Shown: positions 20,104 through 63,237 of the stretch, in pieces
How the letters are laid out: each line of letters starts with the position of its first letter
How positions within the stretch are numbered: the stretch's first letter is position 1
DNA from: Cavenderia fasciculata
Lineage: Eukaryota; Evosea; Eumycetozoa; Acytosteliales; Cavenderiaceae
NCBI RefSeq assembly: GCF_000203815.1
Contig: NW_004457711.1
Coordinates: 62,001-126,000, forward strand
Reading direction: 5' to 3'
Length of the DNA stretch: 64,000 bases
The notes under the pieces: model-generated
The model's input: the letters and a program-made list of their open reading frames with translations, nothing else
What the model was told of the DNA's origin: nothing
The model's database searches: none
Position numbers and translations under genes: made by a program

Positions 20104-22476
20104 TCAAATTCAATTTATTTATGTTTCTAATTATTTAATTTTCTTTTTTTTCTTAGATTTTAAATTTACATCATTTGGTTCACTTTGGTAGAAAGTTACC
20201 ACCCACTCAATCCTCTCCAGACACTACTACTACTACTACAACTACAGAAGAAGATAAATCAATACCAACATTAACAGCATCAGAAGCATCACTTATAAGA
20301 AAGACATTTTCAGCAGATAGTATAAGTAGTTTGAACCACTTGAATATTACCAAAAAGACAATGTCACCACCACCAACCAACTTTGATGACATTATTGAAA
20401 ATACTATCTACCTCAAAGCCTTTAGAATATTCTCTGAAAAACATCATGGTATCGAAAATCTATTATTCTATCTTGATTGTCATTCACTCAAGCAATTGGA
20501 AGCTCGTTCAGCACCACGTGAAACAGTCAGATCAATGTTTTTAAATATGTACAATAATTATATCACTCCGGGTTCATCTTTTGAAATTAATATCGATTCT
20601 GAAGCAAGATCTGCTATCGATGATAGACGTTTAAATCTATTTTTAGATCAAGGTAAAAAACAAAGAAAAAAAAAACAATATATATTATATATATATCTAT
20701 CTGATCAATTTATTAATTTTTATTTTAAATTTTTTATTTTTAGATATTTATCCAAGTTTATCAATTGCAATTGAAGCAATTTCCTCTTTATTAAATTATT
20801 CAATGTTTCCATTATTTTTAAAGAGTCCACTCTATCAAGCAGCAGCAATATTAGAAAGAGGTAGTCAACAACCAACAGAGACTATAGGTGTATCTAAACT
20901 TACCAAATCACTCGATACATTGATTAGTAATCCAATTGGTTTGGAATACTTTTTACTCTACCTCAGACCATCTAGACCAACATCACCAAACAGCGGTAGC
21001 AGCAACAATACAACACCTTCATCTTCATCACCCTATTTTAGAGATAGATCCAACAGTATGGTTATTGGAGGTTCATCACCAAGCCATTCTGCACCCTCAT
21101 CTGCTTCTACTTCACCCAATTCAGTTTCTCCATTGACATCATCACTTTTATCACCAAGATTCTCACCACTACTTTTACAAACACCCGCCGTTTCTCCCAT
21201 CGACGCTAGAAACATGGTCTTTTTGTGGCTCAATATCAATAGACTCAAGGTACTTGCTGAAGAGTTTATTGATCAGTATGCATACGAACTGTACGACACT
21301 TATATTCGTAATGGTGCTGAAAAGGAGATTTCTGTGCTATCTGCTGTAGACTCTGTTAGACATTCGATTCAAGAAGCTATTGCCTCTAAACAAAGAGCCA
21401 AAGTATTGATGGCATTTGACAATATTGGTCAAGATATCATACTTCAACTCACAAACACCCATTTCCAACTATTCCTTCAAAGCAATGTTTGCAAGGATAT
21501 GTTGGGACGTGAGGAAAAGATGATTAAATACATGGAAAAGGATAAAAAGAAACCAGAAAACAAGGTTGACCTTCAGTTTGAACAAATCTCTAGAGAGAAA
21601 TTAAAAGCAATATTCCCAAGAACTAGAGAACGTCAAGTATCTGTTAAACCAGGTGCACTCTCACCCATTACAATCTCTCCTACTCTTTTGGACAAACCCG
21701 TATCTTCTGGTCAACCTTCTCTTTCACCAACTTCCACTAGTTCCTACAACAAAGCTTTACCACCACTTCCAGCATCAGCATTATCTAATTCCAACAATTC
21801 ATCTTCATCTAATCCAACCATTGTAACAACAACAACAGCACCATTAAATAGTAGTACAAGTAGTAATGGTAGTAATAGTGGTGGCGGTACAACAACAACA
21901 ACATCAACAGTATTTGAACACTCTACCTCTCATCCATCGACACCATCAAAAGCACCATTGACACCAAATATTTCACAACAAAGAAAACAATCCAACTTTG
22001 ATCTAACTACCACACTTCCAGGTGGAGGTGGACCAACAACAGCAGCCGACAAACCAAATGAAGTTTTTTGTTATATTCTCTCTGAACCAACATGGTTGGA
22101 TACCTTTAAACGATTTGTAAAGTCTGAGAAATGTGAAGAACTACTTCTTTGTTGGATGGAGTTGGAGAGATACTGTAGATCGAGTAAATCATCATTGGCA
22201 GCTGCCAACAATATCTATGAAAACTTCTTCCTCGAAGGATCTCCACTCGAAGTCAATCTGGAGCCAGAATTAAAACTTGCTGTAAGGGATGCACTCAAAT
22301 CAGAAGTATTGTCAACCATTGACCAACAACTCAAACTTAGTTGTCAATCATCATTTGAATTGTTACGTGTTGATTGCTTTGGTAGATTCATCAGAAGCAA
22401 TGTATTTAAAGATTTGGTTCAACAAGTTGGTGATCCATTCGATTCAAAGAATAGAAAAAAAATAACAAAGAAATAA
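19243..22476 (+). CDS. BAR protein with three RGS domains
   Basis: Five exons (19243-19257, 19389-19524, 19610-20061, 20157-20652, 20744-22476) give 943 residues. Exon 1 is only MVYYS. Residues 10-215 form a BAR-like helical domain (HSLCISLNSALEGSKHYVEQV, then LANDLYKIGLQIPQ, then VMAKLTQSISFYEKYLSLLES and LHHLVHFGRK). Three RGS-type segments follow: about 275-405 (FDDIIENTIYLKAFRIF, HGIENLLFYLDC), about 430-625 (split by a Ser-rich insert; ARNMVFLWLNINRLK, HFQLFLQSNVCKDML) and about 805-930 (TWLDTFKRFVKSEKCEELLL, FGRFIRSNVFKDLV). RGS domains accelerate GTP hydrolysis by G-alpha; the BAR part would place this activity on curved membrane. RGS 2 looks most divergent. Ser/Pro-rich linkers separate the units. 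The first two short exons are the least certain part. Confidence 0.82.
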
Positions 22477-27108: not shown

Positions 27109-30100
27109 TTAGGAAATTAGTTTATTGGTGCGTATTTTTAAAGACAATGGCATCTTTTTGGCAATTGGCGTAACTGGATTCTCTTGTTGTTGTTGTTGGA
27201 CATTATTGTTGTTGGATTCAGTACTAGAATTAACAGAGTCTACTTCTATATCATCATTGGAAATATCTTCAAAACTACTATCTTTTTCTTCTTCTTCCTC
27301 TTCTAGACTTTCTTCCTCTTCTTCAATTAATTTTGTTGGTTTTCTTCTCTTGATTTGATGAGTTGATTTTCCATTTTGGGTAGTGGTAGACTTTCTTTTA
27401 AACTTGTTACCAAGTTCATTATCAGAGTCAATTGAAAAGTCATCATCGTTTTCTTGTTCCGACTCTATTTGCTCTTCCTCTTCTTCTTCCTGTGGAACAA
27501 TGTCATTTTGTTTTTTTAATCTAGATGTTCTTGTTGAAACCATTGTTTGAGGAATTGTGATGACTAGTGATTTTGATCTTGTTATTCCTGTTGTTGGTGT
27601 TGGATTAATATTATTATTATTTGCCAAAGCTGATCTTGTTCTTCGTGGTGGATTCCTAACAACCATATCTTCTTCCTCTTCATCATCTTCATCCTTTTCA
27701 CTTTGATCTTCTTCTTGTTGTTGTTCTATATCAACTTCCATTGATTCTTCTTGGTCAGTTTTATTATCAATTGATTCTTGTCCATGATCTATTTCGCTAC
27801 CTGGTGGAAGATATTCCCTGAGGGAAGCCAAAACTTGATGATACACGAGCTTTGAGTTTCTTGCAATTTTGGTGTTGGGTTGGTTGTATGTAAATGCACT
27901 TCGCATGATCAACTCTGTATCGTGTGCAACCGATTCAACTCGACGATAATAGTCGTTTCTCAGACGAGAGAATATGGTTGAAAAGTCCATTGGGTGGGCG
28001 ACATAATGGATGTAGAGGGGATACGATTCCAAATCTACTGGCTCCAAATAGGGCAAACATATTTCATTTTCGACGATATCTTCCAATGTAGCAATGATCG
28101 AATCACGTACTTGAGGTTCGATAACCTCTTCTGATTCATCAGTCATTGTTCGCAATAATTTATCGACAAGCATCAAATAAGATGTTTGGTCTATATCTTG
28201 TTCCATTTCCGAATCATCCTCTTCTTGCTCTCCTGCTGCTGCTGCTGCTTCTATTTCTTGATCGGTCAATAATTCTATTTCCCAAGGACTAACCCTGTCA
28301 TCATTGCCATCCTGACTCCAACAAACCAATATTCTTTCCCATAAACTGTCTGGGTAATTTGGATCCGAAGGGGCAATACTCTTGATTCTACCATTGTACC
28401 ACTTTTCTTCATCGGGATAATACATTTTAAATTTCATTCCTGGTGCCCATCGCGTCTCGAGGCTCCTTTTAACCTTACTTGCCAATACCAAATAATCTGG
28501 AATGTCACTAACATGATAAAATACCTTGATTTCATCTTCTTCATCGGGACTTGAAACAGGTTTTAGCGTGATTTGTGCCTGATGCAATCCGGGATTGCTA
28601 GATTGAGGCGAGGTGATAATATATTTTAATTCTTTGATAATACATTCTTCTGCTGTAGACAACCACAATAGAGATAAACCAACGTCTTGGACAACCTCAT
28701 CTGGGTACATATCTAAATATTTTTTATGTCCTTGGTGGAAATAAATTACATTATCTCCAATCTAAAAAAGGAATCAATTGTTAGAAATATTCAAGGTAAA
28801 AGATATTATTAATATTGTTTACATACTTGTGGTATATAAGAGGTAATAGAATTATTAGAGTCAACCAATAACCATTTTGGACAAAGAGGAGGTGAAGAGG
28901 AGGGTTTTAAAGCTGTAGGTACACTGTTGGGTTTTAAGGTGAACCTTGCTTTTCTCTTTTTCTTGTTTGTTTTATCTTTTTTCATTCGATCATCATCATC
29001 TTGATCATCTTGTTGGTCATCTCCACTTTCAAATTCCTCTTGGTAATCCTCATCATCATCGTCTTCATCTTCTTCGTCATCCTCGCCGTTTGCATTGTTA
29101 CTATAGGCATAAATAGAACGAGTTGACATTGGACGACCTCTTTTTCTTTTTATCATTGAATCAGCTGTTGTTGATTCGTTACCATCCTGTCCATTATCTT
29201 CATCACTTGGTATTTCAGTTGGTAGCCCCAATGTCTCTATAATTTCATCAAGTTGTCCATTTGTTGTTCTACTTCTTGTCAATGGGATTTTTCTTCTTAA
29301 TATTTTCTTTTTCTTTTCTAAAAAGTTTGATAAAACAAATTAAAAGATTTAATAAATAGATAATAATAAATAAATAAATAATTTCTTTTTTTCTACTTAC
29401 GTTCAACCATTTTCCTACTTTGACTTCTTGTTGTAATTTGGTTTTCATCATTTGAGTCTTCTTCCTCTTCTTCTTCTTCCTCTTCAGATTCTTCTTCTTC
29501 AGAGGATTCTGACTGATTTCTCTCTGATTCCTCCTCAGAGGGGACAAAATCGTCATCTGAAAGATCACTAGGAATTGGAAGATCATAATCATCAACAGAC
29601 TCTTCCTCTTCTGTTTCTTCTTGTTGTGCTTGTGTTGGTGGTTGTTTTCTTCCTCTTGGTTTTTTTGTTGGTGTGGGTGGTTCTGGAGGTATAATAAACT
29701 CTCTTTTTTGTTTTGGTTCCTCTTTGAGAGAGAGCTCTGTTTCATACTCTAATAATTGTTTGTATCGACGCAGATCCTCTTGATATTGAGCTGTTTTGGA
29801 ATAATTTTTGGGTTCAGGTGGGGGTGGTGGTTGGAAACCATAGGATTGTCCTTGATAGTTGACAAGCAGCGGTTGTGGTAAAAGATGAGGTGCTGTTTGA
29901 GTAAGATCATCCAATACATAACCATAAAGATCACGAATGAGTGAATGATAGTCGTTGTGAAAAAATTGTTCAAATGGTGTATTTGAAAAGCGGGTGGAAT
30001 TTACATCTCCTCCAATTTCAAACATGTACCATTTTCCAGTGTTGGTTGTAACACACAACTGTGTTCCATCGGGAGAGAATCCACCATCTGAAATCTGTGA

Positions 30101-31397
30101 CGAAGCAATCAAATTATCCAAAATAAACTTTTTTACAACTACTCCTCTTTCAATATCCCACAATAAAACCATAGAGTCATAGCCAGCACTCATCACTAGT
30201 CTTCTATCAAACGGATGAGTATCCAATACAAATACATCTGAAAGATGTTCTGTTAATTCTCTACACAATGACCCATCGTTGGCATCCCAAACTCTTATAA
30301 CATGATCAGCTGTTATGATAAATCTATCATCCAACGACCAAACAACTGTTCTTAATTTATCTTTAAAATTTCTTTTTTGAGAATTAATTCCTCTTGAATT
30401 AACTAAAGTAGATGGAAAATAAAATTAGAATAGGTTTTCTATTTCTTTTTTTCTTTTTTTTTCTCTCATACAAGTTATTTGATTCCAAATGGTACCATAG
30501 GAATGTTTCCAAATGATTACAGTACCATCGTCGGTACCAGATATGATAGAATCACTTTTATGATTACAAGATAATAATTTTATAGTGGGGGTATGACCCT
30601 CCAAAGTATTTACAAGTACGGGTGGATGTGATGCAAGTGACCAGATAGTGATAGATGTTCCACTGGCAATAAATACAAGTGTACCAGCATTGTTAAAACT
30701 GGCACTGTTGATTGAAGATGTTGAAGATTGTAAAATACAAGACTTTGATAAATCGTCGAGATCCCATAGACGACAAACGCCATAAGAATCTGAACTGAGA
30801 ACAAGATTTCTATCGGGTGTTGGACAAAATGATACAGAGGTGATAAAATTCTTTGTCGATACTTCGTGTCCTAGTAGAGTGTGTATGGGGGCATAGCTAT
30901 ACAAATCCCAAACACGAACAGTACTATCATTGGACGCAGATACCAACATTGAATTATCAAAACTAACAGACATATCTGTAATATCACCTGCATGCGCTCG
31001 TAAAGTCCTTATTAATCTACCAGTACTCGATGACCAAACTTTAACCAAATGATCATCTGCTCCAGTTATAAATCTATCTCCTGTTTTATCAAATGTAAAA
31101 CAATATGTTGGTGCTTTATGTGCTTGAACTGTTACAATCTAAATAAAATTATAAATATTATTAATAAATGGAATAAATGAATAGATATTAATTAATTTAC
31201 ATACCAATTGGAAATTTGATGAAAATGGTAATGGTTGTTGTAATTTTCTAGATCCATCAAGTTCTCTTGATAAAACTTTAGATGTAAATGGTACCATTTC
31301 ATTATTTTCATTATTCTTTGATCGAGTGTTTCTTATTGCATTATTAATGGTTCTCTTGTTTGTCGTTGTTAGAGGGTATAATAATTTTGGTAATTGA

Positions 31398-40224: not shown

Positions 40225-43200
40225 ATGGAGCCAACCCAAGATGACACTGATCATCTAGTCAATCAACAAGAAGAAGAACAACCACAACAACATACAGAAC
40301 AAGAGAGTCAAGAGAGAAATCAATCTATTGACAATTTAAAACAACAAGATGATAAAGAGAGAGAAAAAGAAGAAGAAGCCGTTCAACCTGCCTCTATTCT
40401 TCCAATTCAAGAGGTAGGGGAAACTTTTGAACAAGTTGCTGAAAAGACAGAGTCACAACCAACAACTGACCTTCAAGGGAAAGATCATTCATCTTTACCA
40501 ATTCGACAAGATGAATCATCGGATCAAGAGGAAGAACAAGGAACTTCTCCAAAGAGTGGTTCTATTTTAAAGTTTATTGAAAGTACTAGAGGTCAACCAT
40601 CAAGAGATCAAACTAGAAAGAGAACTTTTACAATTGGATCAAGAGGTACTCCAACTATATCATTATCAAATGAACAACAACAACAAGACACTACTACTAC
40701 TATTATTGGTAATCAAGAGTCTTCTTCAACTGCTTCTATCTCTATCATTACCACCTCCACTACGAATGGTACTGGCACAACATTTTTATCAACTTCACCA
40801 TCCCCTTCTACATCACCAAATTCTACAACGGCTACCAATCTATTATCAAATCATCGTTCTACTTCCAACGAAGATTCACCTCTTTCTAGTCCATCACAAA
40901 CAAGAAAGAAAAAAGTACAGAAAAAGGTTACAATCAATCCAGATGATATAAAACCAGATGGTGCTACCAATGACTATGCTTCTCAAGATAACATCATAGT
41001 TACAATTGGAAATGGTGAAGATAATTATAATACTCTTGTCAAAGATGGTATGAAAAGAGATATACATGGATTTATTGTTGATGATTTCTATGAAGAGTTG
41101 AAAAAATTCCAAGTACAAGAGGAATTAATGTCTAAACAAAGATTGGAAAAGTGGACTGCCTTTAACGAACACTACAAGCATGTTGGTCTTTGTTCAAATC
41201 CAAAACAACTTCATAAATTATTATCTCATGGTATTCCCCATGGTGTCAGAAATGTCGTATGTAAAAAAAAAGAAAACAAGTAAAAAGAAGAAGTATATTG
41301 TATCAATCAAGTTTAACTCTTTCCTTTTTTTTTTTTGTTAGTTATGGAAAATTTATTCAGGAGCAGGAGAAAAACAAAGAAAAGAGGAGATTGAATTATT
41401 TAAACAACAAAAGGAAGAGAGATTAAAGTCAAGATTGAATGGAATGGGAACTATTAGAGGATTAAATCCACCTGCCAATAGAAAATCATATTACCAACAC
41501 TTGCACCAAATCATTCGTTCATCAAATAGAATATCAACTAGATTACAATCTACGGCAGTAGAGATTGATAAAGATATTGAAAGAACTTTTCCCGGCCATC
41601 CATTCTTTGAAAGTGATGAGGGTAAAAGAAAATTGACACGTGTTCTTCAGGCATATTCAGTTCGTAATAGAAAGGTAGGATATTGCCAGTCTATGAACAT
41701 TGTCGCAGGATATCTCTTGTATGTAGTCAATAGAAACGAAGAGGATGCATTTTGGTTGCTGTCAACCATTGTCGAAGACTATTGCCACAATTATTACTCG
41801 ACCAATCTCTTGGGTGCACAGGTAGACATGCAAGTATTTGACCACCTCGTCAAGACTCACCTACCAACACTCTACAATCACATGCAAAATCTGTCAGTTT
41901 CCCTTTCATTGCTTTCTACCAAGTGGTTCATGTGTCTCTATGTGGGCGTTTTGCCAAATGAAATTGTTTTTAGAATCTGGGACCATCTCTTTGTCGAGTG
42001 TGGTATCTATGGTTTCCACAAACCATCACAAGAATCAAAATGGCTCGAAGAGGACATTATTCTCAACGACAAGCTCAACCAACCATTCAAATGTCAAGGT
42101 CTCGCCAGTTATAACCTTCTCTTGACTGCTCTGGCCATTCTATCCTACTTGGAAGAAAGCCTTCTCAAGACCAATTCCACACCAGAACTTCTCACCATCC
42201 TTTCAAACAATTGCAAGGGTATTTTTGATGCAAAGAGATTTTTCAAAAAGTATTACAAATGGAGAGATAGAATCAATGAAGAATCTTTTATCGAATCTAA
42301 AAAGGTTTCTGAAATTAATTTAATTCAAGAATTGGAAGAAATGAGAAAATTAAGAGATCTTAGATCAACTTCAAAGATTACTAGATGTAAATATATAGAA
42401 AGAAAAGGAAAGAAAGATTATTTATTTATTAAATTTTTTTTTTTTTTAACTTTTAGTTTCAAAAGGAGAATTGGAAAAGATTTGGGATGGATTTAGAAAT
42501 TTGAATCTTGGAATGGGACAAAGATCGCGAGTAAGCATGGGGAAATCATTAAAGTTGGATTTTGATATATTTAAAAAGGTATTTTCATACATTTTACCAA
42601 CTTATGATACAAGTGCCAAGGAAGTGATCATTCAACAACTCTTTAAAATTTTTGATAAAAATAAGGATGGATGTTTGGATTTCTCTGAATTAATGAGTGG
42701 TCTTTGTATTTTAGCAAAAGGAACTTCCGAAGAAAGATTACAATGTAAGGAAAAAAACAAAATAAGAAATAATAATATTTATATTTATTTATTTTCTTTT
42801 TTATTAGTATACTTTTCATTTTTTGATAGTGATAATTCAGGTTTTGTAACAAAAGAAGAGATGAAGTTGATGCTTCAAACGGCCTATGAAAAAATAGATC
42901 TAGATCCATTGGCTGTTACACAATCATCTATTGATGACTATGTTGATGTTGTATTTTCAAATCTTGGCATCTCAAACAACAGTTTGTCATTTGATGATTT
43001 CAGACGAGCCATTCTCTCTTATCCAAGAATATTCAAATGTTTCATGTTGGAGGAAGAAACATTTACAATTGAAGATTTTGAAATGTTTGATGAATCAGAT
43101 ACAGTAAAATCTAATGTAAATACTCCTCCTCTTGTTGATAATGTAAATAATAATAATGATATCGATAATAATATACAACGAGGAGAAAACAATTTAAAAA

Positions 43201-43643
43201 CAAGTGATGGTATAAAGAATAATAATGAAACCAACAACAATTCAGAGCCAACAACAACAACAAATGACTCTAATAATTCACTACAAAACCATCCTTTATT
43301 AAACACCAACATAACCTATACCAAACCAAAATCAAATACAGGATCCAACACTAGTATTAACAGCAATAATGGTAATAATTCCAATTTTAAATCAACATTA
43401 ATTCAAGCAATTGAACAAGCACAAATGGAGAAAGAGCCAGGGGTAAAGCATCAAACCATTAGTTCTTCTAATGAAACAGTATCGACATCTTCCTCTGCTG
43501 CTCCATCTGAAAATTCAGCAACTGCTGTGCCAGCTCCCTCATCTTCACCTTCACCTTCTTCTGCTCAAACTGACAGATCAAGAAGATTATCTCGTGCAGT
43601 TGAACCAGAAGGAGCTCCACTTTCTTGTTGCAAGTTTATGTAA
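40225..43643 (+). CDS. TBC-domain Rab GAP with EF hands and CaaX box
   Basis: Four exons (40225-41256, 41342-42386, 42457-42744, 42808-43643) give 1066 residues. The first ~290 residues are Gln/Glu/Ser-rich. The TBC domain (about 340-640) carries both catalytic fingers: IDKDIERTFPGHP (Arg finger) and KVGYCQSMNIVAGYLL (Gln finger), then WDHLFVECGIYGF. Two EF hands follow (about 757 and 797): DKNKDGCLDFSE and DSDNSGFVTKEE, with ligands at the expected positions. After an Asn/Ser-rich stretch the protein ends PLSCCKFM, a CaaX farnesylation box preceded by a Cys that could be palmitoylated. The layout resembles TBC1D8/9 proteins but lacks GRAM domains and gains a lipid anchor. Predicted role: calcium-tuned, membrane-anchored Rab inactivation. 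Confidence 0.9.
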
Positions 43644-43761
43644 TAAACAATCTTTAGTATTTGCAACCAATCAATCCATATTATAGAAAAAAAACAATTA
43701 TTTATTTACAAAAGGGGATTTATATTTTTTTTGTTTACATGTACAGATTAATCAACTTTGA

Positions 43762-46700
43762 TTATTGTTGATTATTATTATTATTACTATTATTATTTTC
43801 ATTTCTATATAAACTTTGGAAATTAATAATATAAGAACTTAAATTTGCCATAGAATGACTAAGGTAACCAATAGTTGACTTTGTGATTTGAGGAGCCTTT
43901 TTACTAATTGCACGAGAAGTATCTGTGATGTATTGCTGCAAAGAATCTTTGTGAATGTCCAAAAGTCTTTCAAAATGTTGTTCGGCAATCTTTGTTGGAA
44001 GTCCTGGGAAGAAACGATTGGCAACTTCATCTTGGATATAGGTCTGACTGAATCGACTAGAGTTGTCCAAAACTGGATCGAGTTTGTTCAAAAACATAAG
44101 ATGGTATAAAAAGAATGGTGCTTCTTTTCTCAAAATACTAAATACCAATGTTGATAACTTTTTAAATGTTTCGATATTCTCTGTAGATTCAATAGTCTTT
44201 GTAAAATCATCACTAAATCTTAAAAAGTTTGATATTGGTTTTGGTTCCTAAAGAAAAATTAAATAGAAAAGGATGTTATTAAATATTTTTATCTTTGTTT
44301 TTTTTGTTTTTGTTCTTTTTTACCTTTCCTAAAATAAAACCATAATCAATGTGAAAGAAATAACCATTATAAGTGATCATAATATTTTCATTATGACGAT
44401 CACCAACACCCAAGAGATGAGTGATGACCATCCAAGAAGCAAGAGATCTTTTAAAACTTTGAATACATGGATGAATACTGTTGCTGCTATTTCTTTCCTT
44501 AAAGTATGTTGGGATGGAAGTTTCGTTGATCTTGCAAAGTGTCTCTGCGTTTTGGACCACCTCGATAAAACCATATTCATTGTTGCAAGGAAGCACACGA
44601 TAGGTCACTATAGAGTCGAGAACTTTTTCCATGTCTTCATCAAAGTCTTCGTAGCAGTTGAAAAAGTCTGTCTTCATCTTGGATATGGTTTCTGTAAAGA
44701 CAGAGGTTGACATTTTCTTGTAGGAATCGATAAGCATGGATAGATGCTCTGGATCATAATCTGCTTTGACAATGTTTTCAATCTGAGTATTTTTGACCAT
44801 CGATAGGATGTTGTGGAGTTTTGAGAGACTAGAAAATGCCTGAATGGCATTGGTATGAGACTGAGAGTAAATCGAATCCATGACAGAGTCGAAAAGCTTT
44901 TTATGGTCCATCTTTAGTTTTCTGATGTCATTAATCTTTTCCTGGAGGATCTTTTTCATGACCGAGATAATGTTGAGAATGATACGGTCTTTTCTGACAT
45001 CGTCCTTTTTAAAGATGAGATCAAAGATTTCTTCCTTTTTAGTGTCGGTGTTGAGACATCTAAATACCATCTTGATTGGACGTGTTGCACTGTCTTTGAT
45101 TGTCATACGATCGGGAAAGAATTCCTTGATGACGTACGATGGATCGATGGGATAACGAATTTCAATGGGGACAACCTCGTACTTTTCAGTACGTGGATTA
45201 AAAGTACGGACCTGTCGATTGATAAGGTTACTGATTTCATTCTTTTTCACATCAAACTCTGGACCATAATAGGGTGGTATACTCTTTAGAATGTTTAAAA
45301 GTTCGACACCATAAATGTAACTTTGTGTGGTCTTGTCATTCTTTGTAGCTTGCAACATTGAATGATTGTGAAGTAGTTCACATTTAAACACTTCATACTT
45401 GTGGAAATATTCTTTACTTGTTTGACAGTTGTTCAATTCCCACAATAAAAAGTGTGCAATTCTTGGTGATTTTAATGATTTATCAAATAAATATTCTTTT
45501 AAATCATTTCTTTCAACTGATTTTTCAAATCTAAAATAAAAAAAAAAGAAATTATTAATAATTTAATTAACTGATATAATTTTGTTTTTTTTTCTCACCT
45601 TAGATAATAAACCAATTGAGGTAAGAAATAAATTAAATCATCATCACAATCTATTGTTTTTAGAATATCAACTGCAAACTTTCTAATTTCTTGACAAGTA
45701 ATGTTTTCATCCAAAAGTGGAAAGACGTCTTTGATTGGGATTGTTGAACAACAAGATGAAGAACACATTAAATAGTAACAGTTCATTTCTGTCTTTTCGC
45801 ACCCCTTGACAATCTTTAGAATCTTTTCCAATTTTTGTTGATCGATACCTCTCCAGTCGATTGATTCTACCAATTTGACGATCCATTTTGAATGTCCTTC
45901 CAAATATTTACGATTTCTCCAAAGTGATTCTCTTTCAAATGGTTCAAATTGGTGGGTAGGGAAACAATATTGAATCTCTCGAATAGAAGACATGTAGGCA
46001 ACAGATGCCTGTCTCCACATTACACGGAGCGATGAAAACTTTCTAACAATTGGGAATTTTAAAGCCATCAACTCTAGTGATTGATGAATCGTTCCATATC
46101 TTGTATGTTGAACAAGATTACTAAAACAATCTGAACATACCCTAAGCTTTCTATAAAAATAATCCTTTGAACTAGTATATTTTGGTGAAGGTATAGAAGA
46201 ATGTTGAATTGAATTATTTGTACAACTACTACAAAATATATATCCTAAAAATAATCAAAAAAATTAAATAAATTAGAATATGTGATTGAATTTGCAAATT
46301 ATTTGTTTTAACATACCACATTCTCTACAATGATGTTTTCTATTTAAAAGATTAAATTCTGCTCGACATTTATGACAATGAAGAGTAGTTGAATCTTTGA
46401 TCGCTTTGTAGAGACGACGATTCTTTACATCCAATACAATGTCTGGCTTGAAATCCTTTTGCCGATTTGTTTCAAAAATCGTCGAGAGTTGCATATTCTT
46501 TTTTGATGGTTTGCATTCTTGGTGTGGGGAGGTGTGTTTTAATACTGGCGAGTGAGAGGATTGAGAATTGTCGACAACCGGCTCTTCTCGAAGAGAGAGA
46601 ACCGGTGAATCACCATATGATTTTGAAAAGTTATCTTCAGTTTCAATCTTGAACATTGTTTCTGGTTCAAAATCACATGAAATATCCAAAAGATAACGAG

Positions 46701-47675
46701 CTTCATCGGCCGATGCTGCATTGGTCAATAATCTTTCCAATTGAAATCTAACACTTTTGATTAAAAGGTTACCAATAATATCAAAATAGTGTGCACATAG
46801 AATCCATGTATCCAATATATATCCCTTGCCTTTAACCGATACTGTATTATATAAAAACTCTTTAATAGTAACATCTCTTTGATCGAAACAAATGTTTTTC
46901 ATTTCATTACTATCATCGTTGTAGTTGTTATTATTGTTGTTATTGTTGATATGATTATGTAAAACACTAAGACTGTGTGTATCTTCTAGACTAACAAATT
47001 GATCTTCCTCAAAGGTTGGTGATAATATTTGTTCAAAAGTATCATTTGATAAATTTACTGGAAGAGGTGGTGGTATATATTTCCTATTCTTATTGTTATT
47101 CTGTTGTTGTTGTTGTTGTTGTTGTTGTTGTGTTTGTCTATTTAATTTTTAGGATTAATTAATTGATTCTGATAATTAACCTTTACTATTTTTTTTAATA
47201 TTAATTTAATTGAATCATTATCAATGATTGGGTATTGTTTTGCAGATGTAAATATAGGTGAAGTTGATCCTTTGGGTGAAGATGAAGATGAAGACTCTGT
47301 ATGATTTGGTGTATTTGAACCTGTAGAGGTGGATGAAGAAGAATATGATGATGACGACATAGGTTGAGAAGAGGATGATGATAGACCTCCACCACCGATT
47401 GAAAGAGGTGTAGCATTGGTTGGAGAGTCTACCTTTGGTCTTTGATAGATAGTTGATAATACGGAATCTAAAGCTAGCAAGAATGAAATGATTTGATTGC
47501 CTACAGTTTCGCTGATATTAAGATCGTGTGGAAGATAAATCTCTACTATTGGTTTGTTTGATGTCTTTCTATCACGTTCATACTCTGCTCTCAACATTGA
47601 AGAGTACTGTATGAAATGTGTTGGTAGAGGTTGTAATCTTTTCTTATCAGGTAATATAATTTCTAATGTTGACAT
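43762..47675 (-). CDS. Skp1-like / FYVE / class III PI3-kinase fusion protein
   Basis: Five exons (47675-47187, 47100-46317, 46244-45599, 45530-44324, 44247-43762) give 1203 residues. N-terminal POZ half: LEIILPDKKRLQPLP, then VEIYLPHDLNISETVGNQI. After a Ser/Asn-rich insert comes the Skp1-type C-terminal half (about 235-310): LCAHYFDIIGNLLIKSV and ADEARYLLDISCDFEPE, which parallels Skp1 AANYLDIKGLL and PEEIRKTFNIKNDF. FYVE finger (about 404-470): CHKC, RKHHCRECG, CSSC, RVCSDC. PI3K helical domain about 490-700. Kinase lobe about 770-1190: KKDDVRKDRIILNIISVMKK, GVGDRHNEN, FHIDYGFILGKEPKPIS; the Vps34-like tail is VANRFFPGLPTKIAEQHFER. About 100 extra residues sit between KKIL and VTYRVLPC. 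There is no C2 domain. Least certain is intron 1 (47101-47186); without it the Skp1-like N-terminus would be a separate gene. Confidence 0.8.
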
Positions 47676-48017
47676 TGTTTTGTTTTGTTTTGTTTGTTTG
47701 AATGAATAGATTCTATTCTTTAGATAATTATACAAGTGAAAAATGATCTGTGTTTTGTTTGGTTTAAAAAATAAATAAATAAATTGCTATTTACAAATAA
47801 ATAAAAGGTTATTATATAGTGAAGTGAAAATATAGTAGTAAAACAAATTAATTTATGACTTGGTTGGCCTACCATAGAGTTTTATTTTCCTGTTTTTTCG
47901 AAACCCAATAAAAAAATTAGTGTATGAATGTGTGGTGTCATTCATTATCACCAACCACACCTTCTATTTCAGTGTAGTTTGTGAAAAGCGAGAGATAGAG
48001 AAAGGACAGAAAGAGAG
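47676..48017. promoter_or_regulatory. divergent region PI3K fusion / alpha-beta hydrolase
   Basis: About 340 bp of AT-rich DNA with a TTTTG pentamer run (47680-47698) and AAAT runs near 47768-47804. No gene or specific motif was recognised. Confidence 0.4.
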
Positions 48018-49260
48018 ATGGATGAGAGTAAAGTAATTCAGTGTGAAACGCATTAGTATGTTTGATAGTAGTAGAGTGTAGTAATAGTTAGGAGTAGAGA
48101 TATAACAATTAAAAACTCATCAATCACCTTAATCTATCTATATCTATATATATATATCTATCTGTACAGCTTAGATTTGATAGTACCTTCATTAAAATAT
48201 AAACATACTATATGTTATTATCTATGGAGAAAAAATAATGTTGTTCTACAACAACAACCAACAAGATATATCTATTGTTTTCATAGATTGGCTGGAAATG
48301 GAAAAGAGTTTGATTATTTGGCAAGACAATTATTAGAACGAATAAATAATGATGATGATGATGATCAACCTATTGTAGTTGTTTGTGCAGATGTTTGTGG
48401 TCGTGGACAATCACAATACTTGGAAGATCCTCAAGACTATGAATACAAGACTTATATTGCTGATGCAATGGCACTCATCAATCATGTGTCTCCCAATCAA
48501 CCTATCGATCTCATTGGTACATCTATGGGTGGTCTAATTGGTATTAGTTTATTGGTCACTAGTTTTTACAACAAACTAAAACAGGAAACTGCAGACGATC
48601 AACAACAACCAAAAGATCATTTTGTAGTATTAAATAGAAATGATAATATCAATATAAATCAACAACCAACAGCATTACTACCATATATAGAAATTAATAG
48701 ATTAATTTTAAATGATGTTGGAGCATTTGTAACACTGGAATCATTAAGTTCGATAGCCAGTTATGTAGGATGCATGCCAACATTTTCATCAAGACAAGAG
48801 GCAACCCAGTTTTTCCAAAAGGTTTACAATGGATTTGGTAACCTTACAGATGATCAATGGTCTTATTTCGTTGATAGATGTATTATTCCAGAAAATGAGA
48901 ATAAATTAAAGTTCCATTTCGATCCTTCTATTTCAATCAATTTAAAAAAGGTAAAAAGTTTGAAAATAATAATAATAATAATATTTTATAAAATAATAAA
49001 TTAATAATGTATTTTTTTATAATTTATAGGTTGAATCAGATGTAGATATGTGGTCATTTTGGAATAATATTATAGTTAAAAGTACAAAACAAATATTAAT
49101 ATTGAGAGGTAAACTGTCAAAGATATTGACAAATGAAACATTTAATAGAATGGTCAATGGCAACGACAATGTACAAGGAATTGAATTTGAAAATGTTGGA
49201 CATGCTCCATCGCTTTTAGTTGAAGATCAAATACAACCAATCATTAAATTCTTATCCTAG
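48018..49260 (+). CDS. alpha/beta-hydrolase fold protein
   Basis: Proposed exons 48018-48027, 48175-48950 and 49030-49260 give 338 residues. The long open frame has no ATG of its own. A ten-base exon (ATG GAT GAG A) followed by GTAAAG and an acceptor at 48174 restores a start in frame; this first exon is tentative. Alpha/beta-hydrolase features: YIYCFHRLAGNGKEFDYLAR (oxyanion region), CADVCGRGQSQYLEDP, the nucleophile elbow DLIGTSMGGLIGIS with Ser, RLILNDVGAF, and the C-terminal His context FENVGHAPSLLVEDQI. The acid is probably in the strand before it. The sequence recalls the bacterial AB-hydrolase/MhpC type, where GTSMGG is common. Substrate is unknown. Confidence 0.75.
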
Positions 49261-61928: not shown

Positions 61929-63237
61929 TTAGTCATTCATCGATGTTGACAAATTCAAAAAGTATTTCAATAGAGATAATTGTGTGACTGCAGAGACTGG
62001 TTTGTTTTGATTGTCAACGATCCATAATATTGGTGATTCAGATTCTACAAACTTTCTAATCGTGCTTCGTAGTGTAGACGATGGATTAATAATAATTGAT
62101 TCATCAATCGCTAATGGATCTTCTGATACTTTAATAAACATTGAAATTGGTTCCAAACATCTATTAAATGTATAAATTGATAATTTCTATAAATAAATAA
62201 AATAAAGAAATAATTAATAAAGTACAATAATAATAATTCTTTTTTTCTATTACATACACGTAAATCAGAAGAACTAAAACTACCAATTAAATGACCATCA
62301 TCATTGACAACAGCAATCTCTGTAATATGTTCATTATTTAATTTGTGTAGAGCGTCGATTACTTTTTGTGAAGAATTGATGGTAGTGATCGATTTGGAAA
62401 GCAGTGACAATGAAGAGAGTGATGCACTTGACTTGTTTCCAAGTGCTTCAATATTGTCATAGATGAATTTAATGACATTTAATCTTGATACAATATCTAC
62501 TACAACTGTTTCATTTGACATGATAGCAACTTGTGATACTCGTTGTGTCATGATATGAATTAATAATTGAATTGGTGAATTTACAAATAATGGTACAAAT
62601 GGTTCTCTATTATATTCTAGAAAAATGATAGAGAGAGAAAATTAGTATATATATATATATATATATGTACTATGATATATAAGGTTTATAGCTTACTTAA
62701 AACTTCAGCAACAGAAGTATTTGGAGCAAATTCATTGGTTGGTTGACTACCAAGAAAACTACAGACATCGACAATTGATAACATGCCAATGTATTGTTTG
62801 TGTTGAAGATCGACGACGGGTAGTGAAGTTACATTATTTTCATTCATACGCATCAATGCATAGTCGAGTGTAGACAAACTGTCAATAGTTATTACATTGT
62901 GTGTATCGTCACCCAAGATGTATTCAATGAGTGTATTTTGTAATAGATCGACTAGACTGATCGATGCATCGGTCGAATTGGACAATGATCTCGATCGCTT
63001 ATGATTGATTCCTCCAGACGATGATTGTAGTGATGAAGATGATGTAGATTGTTGTTGTTGAAATTGTTGTTGTTGTAACTGTAGTTGGTATTGTCTTCTT
63101 TCGTATTCAAGTATCTGTTGGATTTGGTCGTCTTCTATCGATGTCTTTTTAATCACCCAATAGATAACTGCTCCTGCTGCTCCACTTGCAAGTATCTTTA
63201 CTAATGTATTTAATGTACCTGATGTTATTAATGACAT
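61929..63237 (-). CDS. membrane-anchored four-CBS-domain protein (AMPK-gamma-like plan)
   Basis: Three exons (63237-62697, 62616-62258, 62186-61929) give 385 residues. Near the N-terminus one hydrophobic helix (LVKILASGAAGAVIYWVI) precedes a Gln/Ser-rich coil (about 35-80). Four CBS motifs follow: about 100-160 (YALMRMNENNVTSLPVVDLQ), 185-240 (HIMTQRVSQVAIMSN), 245-300 (ALHKLNNEHITEIAVVNDDG) and 320-385 (FVESESPILWIVDNQNKPVS). Two CBS pairs make a Bateman module that commonly binds adenine nucleotides, as in AMPK-gamma/SNF4. I see no evidence that this one joins an AMPK complex; the membrane segment argues for a different role, perhaps at an organelle surface. The start at MSLIT is the first ATG after AT-repeat leader. 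Confidence 0.8.

Follow-up and report, generated by a model that had tools for sequence, protein, structure and literature searches.

A predicted phosphoinositide 3-kinase with its own FYVE finger in the social amoeba Cavenderia fasciculata

Can a single protein make phosphatidylinositol 3-phosphate (PI3P) and also hold itself in place by binding it? This question is raised by a gene of the social amoeba Cavenderia fasciculata that lies within positions 62,001 to 126,000 of contig NW_004457711.1 (assembly GCF_000203815.1), a stretch of 64,000 nucleotides that we call the window and whose numbering is used throughout. The gene is on the minus strand, as are all its features given below, and runs from 47675 to 43762 in five blocks that together encode an open product of 1205 amino acids (aa). 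We propose that it encodes a phosphoinositide 3-kinase (PI3K) that has a built-in FYVE finger where Vps34 has a C2 domain, is anchored on endosomes by its product, and exists besides the C2-bearing Vps34-like kinase of the same genome. We give this reading, which draws on sequence comparison, a probability of roughly 0.62. An initial annotation of the locus had gone further, joining a Skp1-like domain to the FYVE finger and to a class III kinase and linking the whole to SCF (Skp1-cullin-F-box) ubiquitin ligases.

The continuous five-exon frame of that annotation was recovered. Block 1 (47181..47675) contains the start codon and an N-terminal segment (aa 1-82, 47675-47430), taken in the initial annotation for the first Skp1 half, followed by a Ser-rich linker, block 2 (46317..47100) is one open frame holding a Skp1-C-half-like segment together with the initial half of the FYVE finger, and block 5 (43762..44247) contains the end of the kinase domain, the C-terminal tail, and the stop codon. 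Introns 2 (46316-46245, 72 bases), 3 (45598-45531, 68 bases), and 4 (44323-44248, 76 bases) have GT...AG ends with T-rich 3' ends, and are located inside the FYVE finger (aa ~426, in the Gly codon of ECGYIFC), the PIK helical domain (aa ~642), and the activation loop of the kinase (aa ~1044), respectively. Because the halves of these domains match in phase across the 3 introns, the FYVE, PIK, and kinase domains belong to one gene, as had been claimed. In the single 1205-aa product, FYVE, PI3Ka, and PI3_PI4_kinase all matched well above their Pfam cut-offs. Coding bias, estimated from training frames of 350 aa or longer in other parts of the window, was positive in the used frame and the highest among the three forward frames in 5/5 blocks. 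In block 1, the bias per codon was 0.22 for the aa 1-82 segment and 0.39 for the linker, the other two forward frames being negative (one reverse frame of the linker was also positive, at 0.23), and a stretch mostly within the kinase insert described below had a bias of 0.14 in the true frame. A scan of 43000-48600 against Rfam gave no match, and an NCBIfam scan gave a single chance match (E 0.18).

The FYVE zinc finger (aa 399-470, 46114..46401, split by intron 2) matched PF01363 with an E-value of 2e-16 (60.3 bits vs a cut-off of 27.8). The motif RKHHCRECG, on which the initial annotation had based this domain, is present (RKHHCR and RVC are kept), as are all eight zinc-binding cysteines (aa 407, 410, 423, 426, 431, 434, 463, and 466), and the best solved-structure match was the FYVE finger of RUFY1 (E 1.4e-12). 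The finger is a likely PI3P binder. The PIK helical domain (aa ~526-698, 45362..45948, split by intron 3) matched PF00613 (E 1.5e-20), and the PI3/PI4-kinase domain (aa ~793-1091, 44107..45079, split by intron 4) matched PF00454 (E 6.4e-24), with 73.9 and 85.6 bits vs cut-offs of 31 and 27.1. The best Pfam stretch of the PIK domain was aa 562-698 (profile positions 44-176 of 185) and the kinase match covered aa 813-1091, the first 36 and 20 aa of the two domains having been placed by eye. Kinases of this family rely for catalysis on a lysine, the DRH-N motif, and the Asp of DFG; in our alignment the FKK lysine, the DD of DDVRKD, GVGDRHNENIM, and HIDYG were all kept. The N-lobe of the kinase contains an insert of 101 aa (aa 850-950, 44606..44908) after the helix that follows DDVRKD. 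At this site, 9/10 aligned paralogues and the p110-gamma chain are continuous, and the tenth, at locus L015, has an alignment break. No Pfam match over cut-off was found for the insert, and the best solved match of the kinase had an E-value of 4.9e-39 without it and 4.8e-34 with it. The letters of the insert, which did not figure in the initial annotation, look helix-prone by eye.

The absence of a C2 domain, also part of the initial annotation, was confirmed: PF00792 had no match in the 1205-aa product at E <= 10, nor on this contig at E <= 0.01, and the FYVE finger and the PIK domain are only ~55 aa apart. We searched the genome (30,995,898 bases in 21 contigs) for the domains concerned and compared by eye the resulting lists of places, the counts of which are lower bounds, some PI3/PI4-kinase places being exons of one gene. 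There were at least 7 PI3K_C2 places (6 over cut-off), each no more than about 2 kb from a kinase place on the list, including a C2 domain ~1.3 kb upstream of the kinase place of locus L012 (C21:2299122). L012 is here taken as the Vps34 gene of this genome, separate from our candidate and C2-bearing. Among at least 18 FYVE places and at least 19 PI3/PI4-kinase places, only the pair in this gene is less than 5 kb apart. The next nearest pair is formed by a FYVE place at C11:45245, ~61 kb from this same kinase, and is followed by one at a distance of ~81 kb on contig C2. The N-terminal region had no second copy in the genome at E <= 10. L015 (C1:1239680-1242979) is a divergent PI3K paralogue in which the G of GDD is likewise missing (FKKDDVRPD) and whose only C2 match, ~2 kb away, falls below threshold (21 bits); it is not sister to the candidate, since close kinship between the two, considered for the shared FKKDDVR, was rejected (p-value of the approximately unbiased test, p-AU, 0.0158).

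The activation loop GFILGKEPKPISNFLRF, which together with the catalytic HIDYG was located by alignment at 44215..44353 (split by intron 4), has the same length as GYILGKDPKILPPPMKL in L012, shares with it the pattern G-ILGK-PK, resembles it in reading GKEPKP for GKDPKI, and has no basic boxes, unlike the class I-type paralogues (for L002, NYKKKFGFKRERAPF). This loop is what speaks for the class III assignment of the initial annotation, which was left undecided by a 12-row tree of the candidate, 10 paralogues from the genome, and a p110-gamma stretch (the distant or partial kinase loci L001, L006, L008, L013, and L014 being omitted). This tree separated three phosphatidylinositol 4-kinases (PI4Ks) from the nine others, candidate included, with a support of 100/99. 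Several observations weigh against our proposal. The candidate sits on a branch of length 1.8, the support for pairing it with L012 is 47/0, groupings with class I (p-AU 0.474) or beside the PI4Ks (p-AU 0.477) were not rejected, and the top solved match with the insert left out was p110-gamma, a class I enzyme, with 137.5 bits vs 132.7 for the highest-scoring Vps34 chain. DFG is replaced by DYG, and the usual GDD by DD with one residue fewer in the alignment, and therefore activity could be altered. In the FYVE finger, WxxD reads AIKD, with A in place of W in the sequence and in the comparison with RUFY1. Finally, searches of prokaryote and viral collections with block 4 as query gave 77 and 5 pattern matches, none of which was confirmed. 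"Vps34-like" thus describes nothing beyond the activation loop as read here; the tree does not discriminate between classes I and III. The long, unsettled branch, the few bits by which p110-gamma scores best, the two motif changes, and the N-lobe insert would all suit a class I-type or catalytically altered kinase, of which the product is not PI3P or the activity is lost, leaving the protein as a FYVE scaffold. However, the candidate keeps the lysine, DRH-N, and the DYG Asp and its loop has no class I basic boxes, and we consider such an enzyme unlikely. Another alternative concerns the 5' end, where intron 1 as modelled (47101..47180) is doubtful as a genuine intron. Its 3' end, CAACAACAG, has 0 T among the last 15 bases before AG, vs 12, 14, and 11 in introns 2, 3, and 4. 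Among seven paralogue introns, 6 were resolved, all with T-rich ends (the seventh, in L015, had no solution), and intron 1 is therefore unlike the nine other introns compared (3 of the same gene and 6 of paralogues). The longer variant of the initial annotation (47186-47101, donor GTAAAG) is likewise open in phase. Blocks 1 and 2 are offset in frame by one inserted base, and their stop-to-stop frames overlap by 7 bases (47142-47148, stop codon included); because of this overlap a single extra A in the AAAAA run at 47150-47146 suffices to join them as coding sequence. With this extra A, the CAA repeat at the junction would read as polyglutamine, which is common in dictyostelid proteins. Because 454 reads miscount homopolymers, an assembly error in the run of A appears at least as likely as a true intron. 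The genome was probably sequenced partly by 454; in the passages available to us, the D. fasciculatum genome is described as sequenced by dideoxy and Roche 454 methods (PMC5282741). Block 1 would be joined to block 2 by either route. An improbable alternative, in our judgment, is that block 1 belongs to a short gene of its own or results from mis-assembly, with the start of the FYVE-PI3K gene lying in block 2 near 46902, as the atypical 3' end of intron 1 might suggest; the same passages report wrongly fused or split gene models in dictyostelid genomes (PMC5282741). This division sits poorly with the frame overlap, with a weak coding bias that persists on either flank into the junction (measured over just 12 and 15 codons, the latter chiefly CAA), and with the position of the sole gene-free gap of some hundred bases, which is upstream of 47675, toward an opposite-strand frame at 48075-49001.

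The Skp1-like halves of the initial annotation fared differently from one another. The C-half-like segment (aa 234-325, 46621..46896), weakly supported by shuffles, a hidden Markov model (HMM), and hhalign and without a Pfam match, is collinear with the Skp1 of the genome over ~80 residues (AHYFDIIG vs ANYLDIKG, DFEPE vs DFTPE). Against the second Skp1 of the genome (from L021) its Smith-Waterman score was 55, a value reached by 5/20000 shuffles and by 1/947 tiles cut from other frames after removal of that of the candidate itself. The top tiles, with scores of 61 and 53, were L045 and L046, and the best other tiles scored 49; L045, which we take to be elongin-C-like, and L046 are not neutral controls because both were picked for weak Skp1_POZ matches. 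The scores of the C-half against two Skp1s of the genome and a Skp1 from the PDB were reached by 0, 1, and 6 of 1000 shuffles. With an HMM built from these three Skp1 rows, the C-half scored 12.2 bits (E 0.0027 in a set of 359 frames, each 80 aa or longer, from the window and the fetched loci, 11 loci of Skp1 or of this gene being excluded), the frame at L045 20.2, the longer frame of the candidate 11.7, the two N-terminal segments joined 10.3, the L046 frame 8.9, and the whole protein 3.9 (E 1). With hhalign, the C-half had a probability of 20.7 (P 0.0011, 33% identity across 58 columns). The N-half, in contrast, was at chance, its scores against three Skp1s being reached by 348, 247, and 820 of 1000 shuffles. 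Because the 5/20000 result is one chosen comparison and thousands of families could have been noticed, we treat it as a lead. The Skp1/POZ profile search, an empty outcome of which had been named beforehand as counting against the idea, gave no Pfam match to Skp1, Skp1_POZ, or BTB in the whole protein or in separate pieces; at E <= 10, PF03931 (Skp1_POZ) matched neither the protein nor its pieces, nor the window when run against the organism's own genome, HMMER filters being liable to drop weak matches. The window was also without a match when the genome was searched with PF01466 (Skp1 C-terminal, E <= 0.001) or with a Skp1 sequence (E <= 10), and the C-half found only two unrelated matches among PDB sequences (best E 0.28). 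Modelling of the Skp1-like part, suggested in the initial annotation, did not help: AlphaFold2 models of each half alone were of low confidence (predicted local distance difference test, pLDDT, 46 and 52) and unusable, and structure searches gave nothing below E 1, a Skp1 chain at rank 2 (E 5.1) being discarded since low-confidence models give meaningless matches. The frame at L045 (C21:1889990-1893055), which had the top score in the HMM test, is itself elongin-C/Skp1-like and, with 20.0 bits, does not reach the Pfam cut-off for Skp1_POZ. That the N-terminus has a real Skp1/BTB fold is, in our estimate, somewhat short of an even bet. That a true Skp1-derived N-terminal domain ties the PI3-kinase and the FYVE finger to SCF ligases would agree with the collinear C-half and with its proline, the counterpart of the proline of DFTPE, which we take to be Skp1 Pro143. 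In D. discoideum, Skp1 Pro143 is hydroxylated, according to the part of PMC9485057 available. Given a similarity that is weak and one-sided and the searches that came back empty, this explanation is improbable, the SCF link is left without support, and we doubt that a working one exists. Equally little credence is due to the full three-part enzyme, in which a single chain would unite a module derived from Skp1, a FYVE finger that binds PI3P, and a kinase that makes it, would keep up a self-sustaining PI3P patch by product binding and self-association, and would bring ubiquitin ligation or an oxygen-dependent modification of the Skp1 type directly to this patch.

Returning to the proposed self-anchoring kinase, its mode of action could be as follows. 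Vps34 reaches membranes via partner proteins. The candidate, with its Vps34-type activation loop devoid of class I basic boxes, would make PI3P from phosphatidylinositol, and its finger, as is known of the FYVE family, would bind this product on endosomes or phagosomes. If the kinase makes PI3P and the finger binds it, the enzyme would therefore be kept at the site of its product, and a PI3P patch could sustain itself without recruitment by Vps15 and Beclin-1. The positive feedback that the initial annotation had suggested may fairly be inferred. For the N-terminal region, a module that binds proteins or forms dimers is the likeliest reading; were the region Skp1/BTB-like, self-association would raise the avidity of the FYVE finger, which is simpler than an SCF link. 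In D. discoideum AdcA, the FYVE finger alone did not reach endosomes, and its authors consider in the passages available that other domains, acting via oligomerisation or partners, may be needed (PMC3001460). We prefer self-association over the SCF link because an N-terminal dimer module would answer that need. If true, this would be an unusual self-anchoring enzyme, PI3P maker and PI3P reader in one protein, and it would allow the localisation or amplification of a PI3P zone driven by product binding to be tested in genetically tractable phagocytes.

The window contains other genes. On the plus strand at 41342-43640, a frame with a RabGAP-TBC domain and the adjoining frame with EF-hands are probably parts of one TBC/EF-hand gene, which is convergent with the kinase gene, the two 3' ends being ~120 bases apart. 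A 609-aa open frame (20647-22473, plus strand) has an RGS domain near its C-terminal end and no other Pfam match at E <= 1e-5. On the minus strand, a frame with a bromodomain and a BRWD/PHIP ancillary domain (27112-28761) lies downstream of one with WD40 matches (29396-30424), and 27112-30424 is probably one BRWD/PHIP-like gene.

The initial annotation knew of no enzyme with this architecture. This appears to hold for the triple combination and not for its pairs: in Table 1 of a 2010 domain catalogue, in the part available, PI3_PI4_kinase and BTB are both among the FYVE-associated domains (PMC2837644), and the FYVE/PI3_PI4_kinase entry, for which that part displays no species, may be a dictyostelid orthologue. 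The same source has PI3_PI4_kinase associated selectively with PX (PMC2837644). The pairing of FYVE and PI3_PI4_kinase is rare, not unheard of. Among the matches listed in literature searches, exact phrases included, which covered mostly open-access papers without their supplements, no description of a FYVE-PI3K enzyme was found, and the passages of PMC3823935 and PMC6563779 available do not mention one. Compared with Skp1, the candidate has a weak collinear similarity in the C-half, whereas the N-half has none detectable and there is no Pfam match. Rabankyrin-5/ANKFY1, a BTB-ankyrin-FYVE protein, likewise unites a BTB-fold module and a FYVE finger, but it has no kinase, and the N-terminus of the candidate is only possibly BTB. 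The PIPK catalytic domain is unrelated in family to the PI3K domain. The type III PIP 5-kinase PIKfyve/Fab1, which has a FYVE finger on an endosomal phosphoinositide kinase as does the candidate, differs in that its catalytic domain is of the PIPK type and is accompanied by TCP1 as well as FYVE domains, as described in passages of PMC3823935. With class I PI3-kinases (p110-gamma, PikA-like) the candidate shares the highest PDB score (137.5 bits) and the N after DRH (as in DRHNDNIM), but not a C2 match or a basic activation loop. It resembles class III Vps34 (PIK3C3; PikE in Dictyostelium) in its PIK and kinase domains and in a loop, GKEPKP, near the GKDPKI of L012, and departs from it in having no C2 domain, in adding the FYVE finger, the N-terminal region, and the 101-aa kinase insert, and in a tree placement that is not firm. 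Class II PI3K, finally, also couples a PI3-kinase to a phosphoinositide-binding module, which in that enzyme is a PX domain and in the candidate a FYVE finger.

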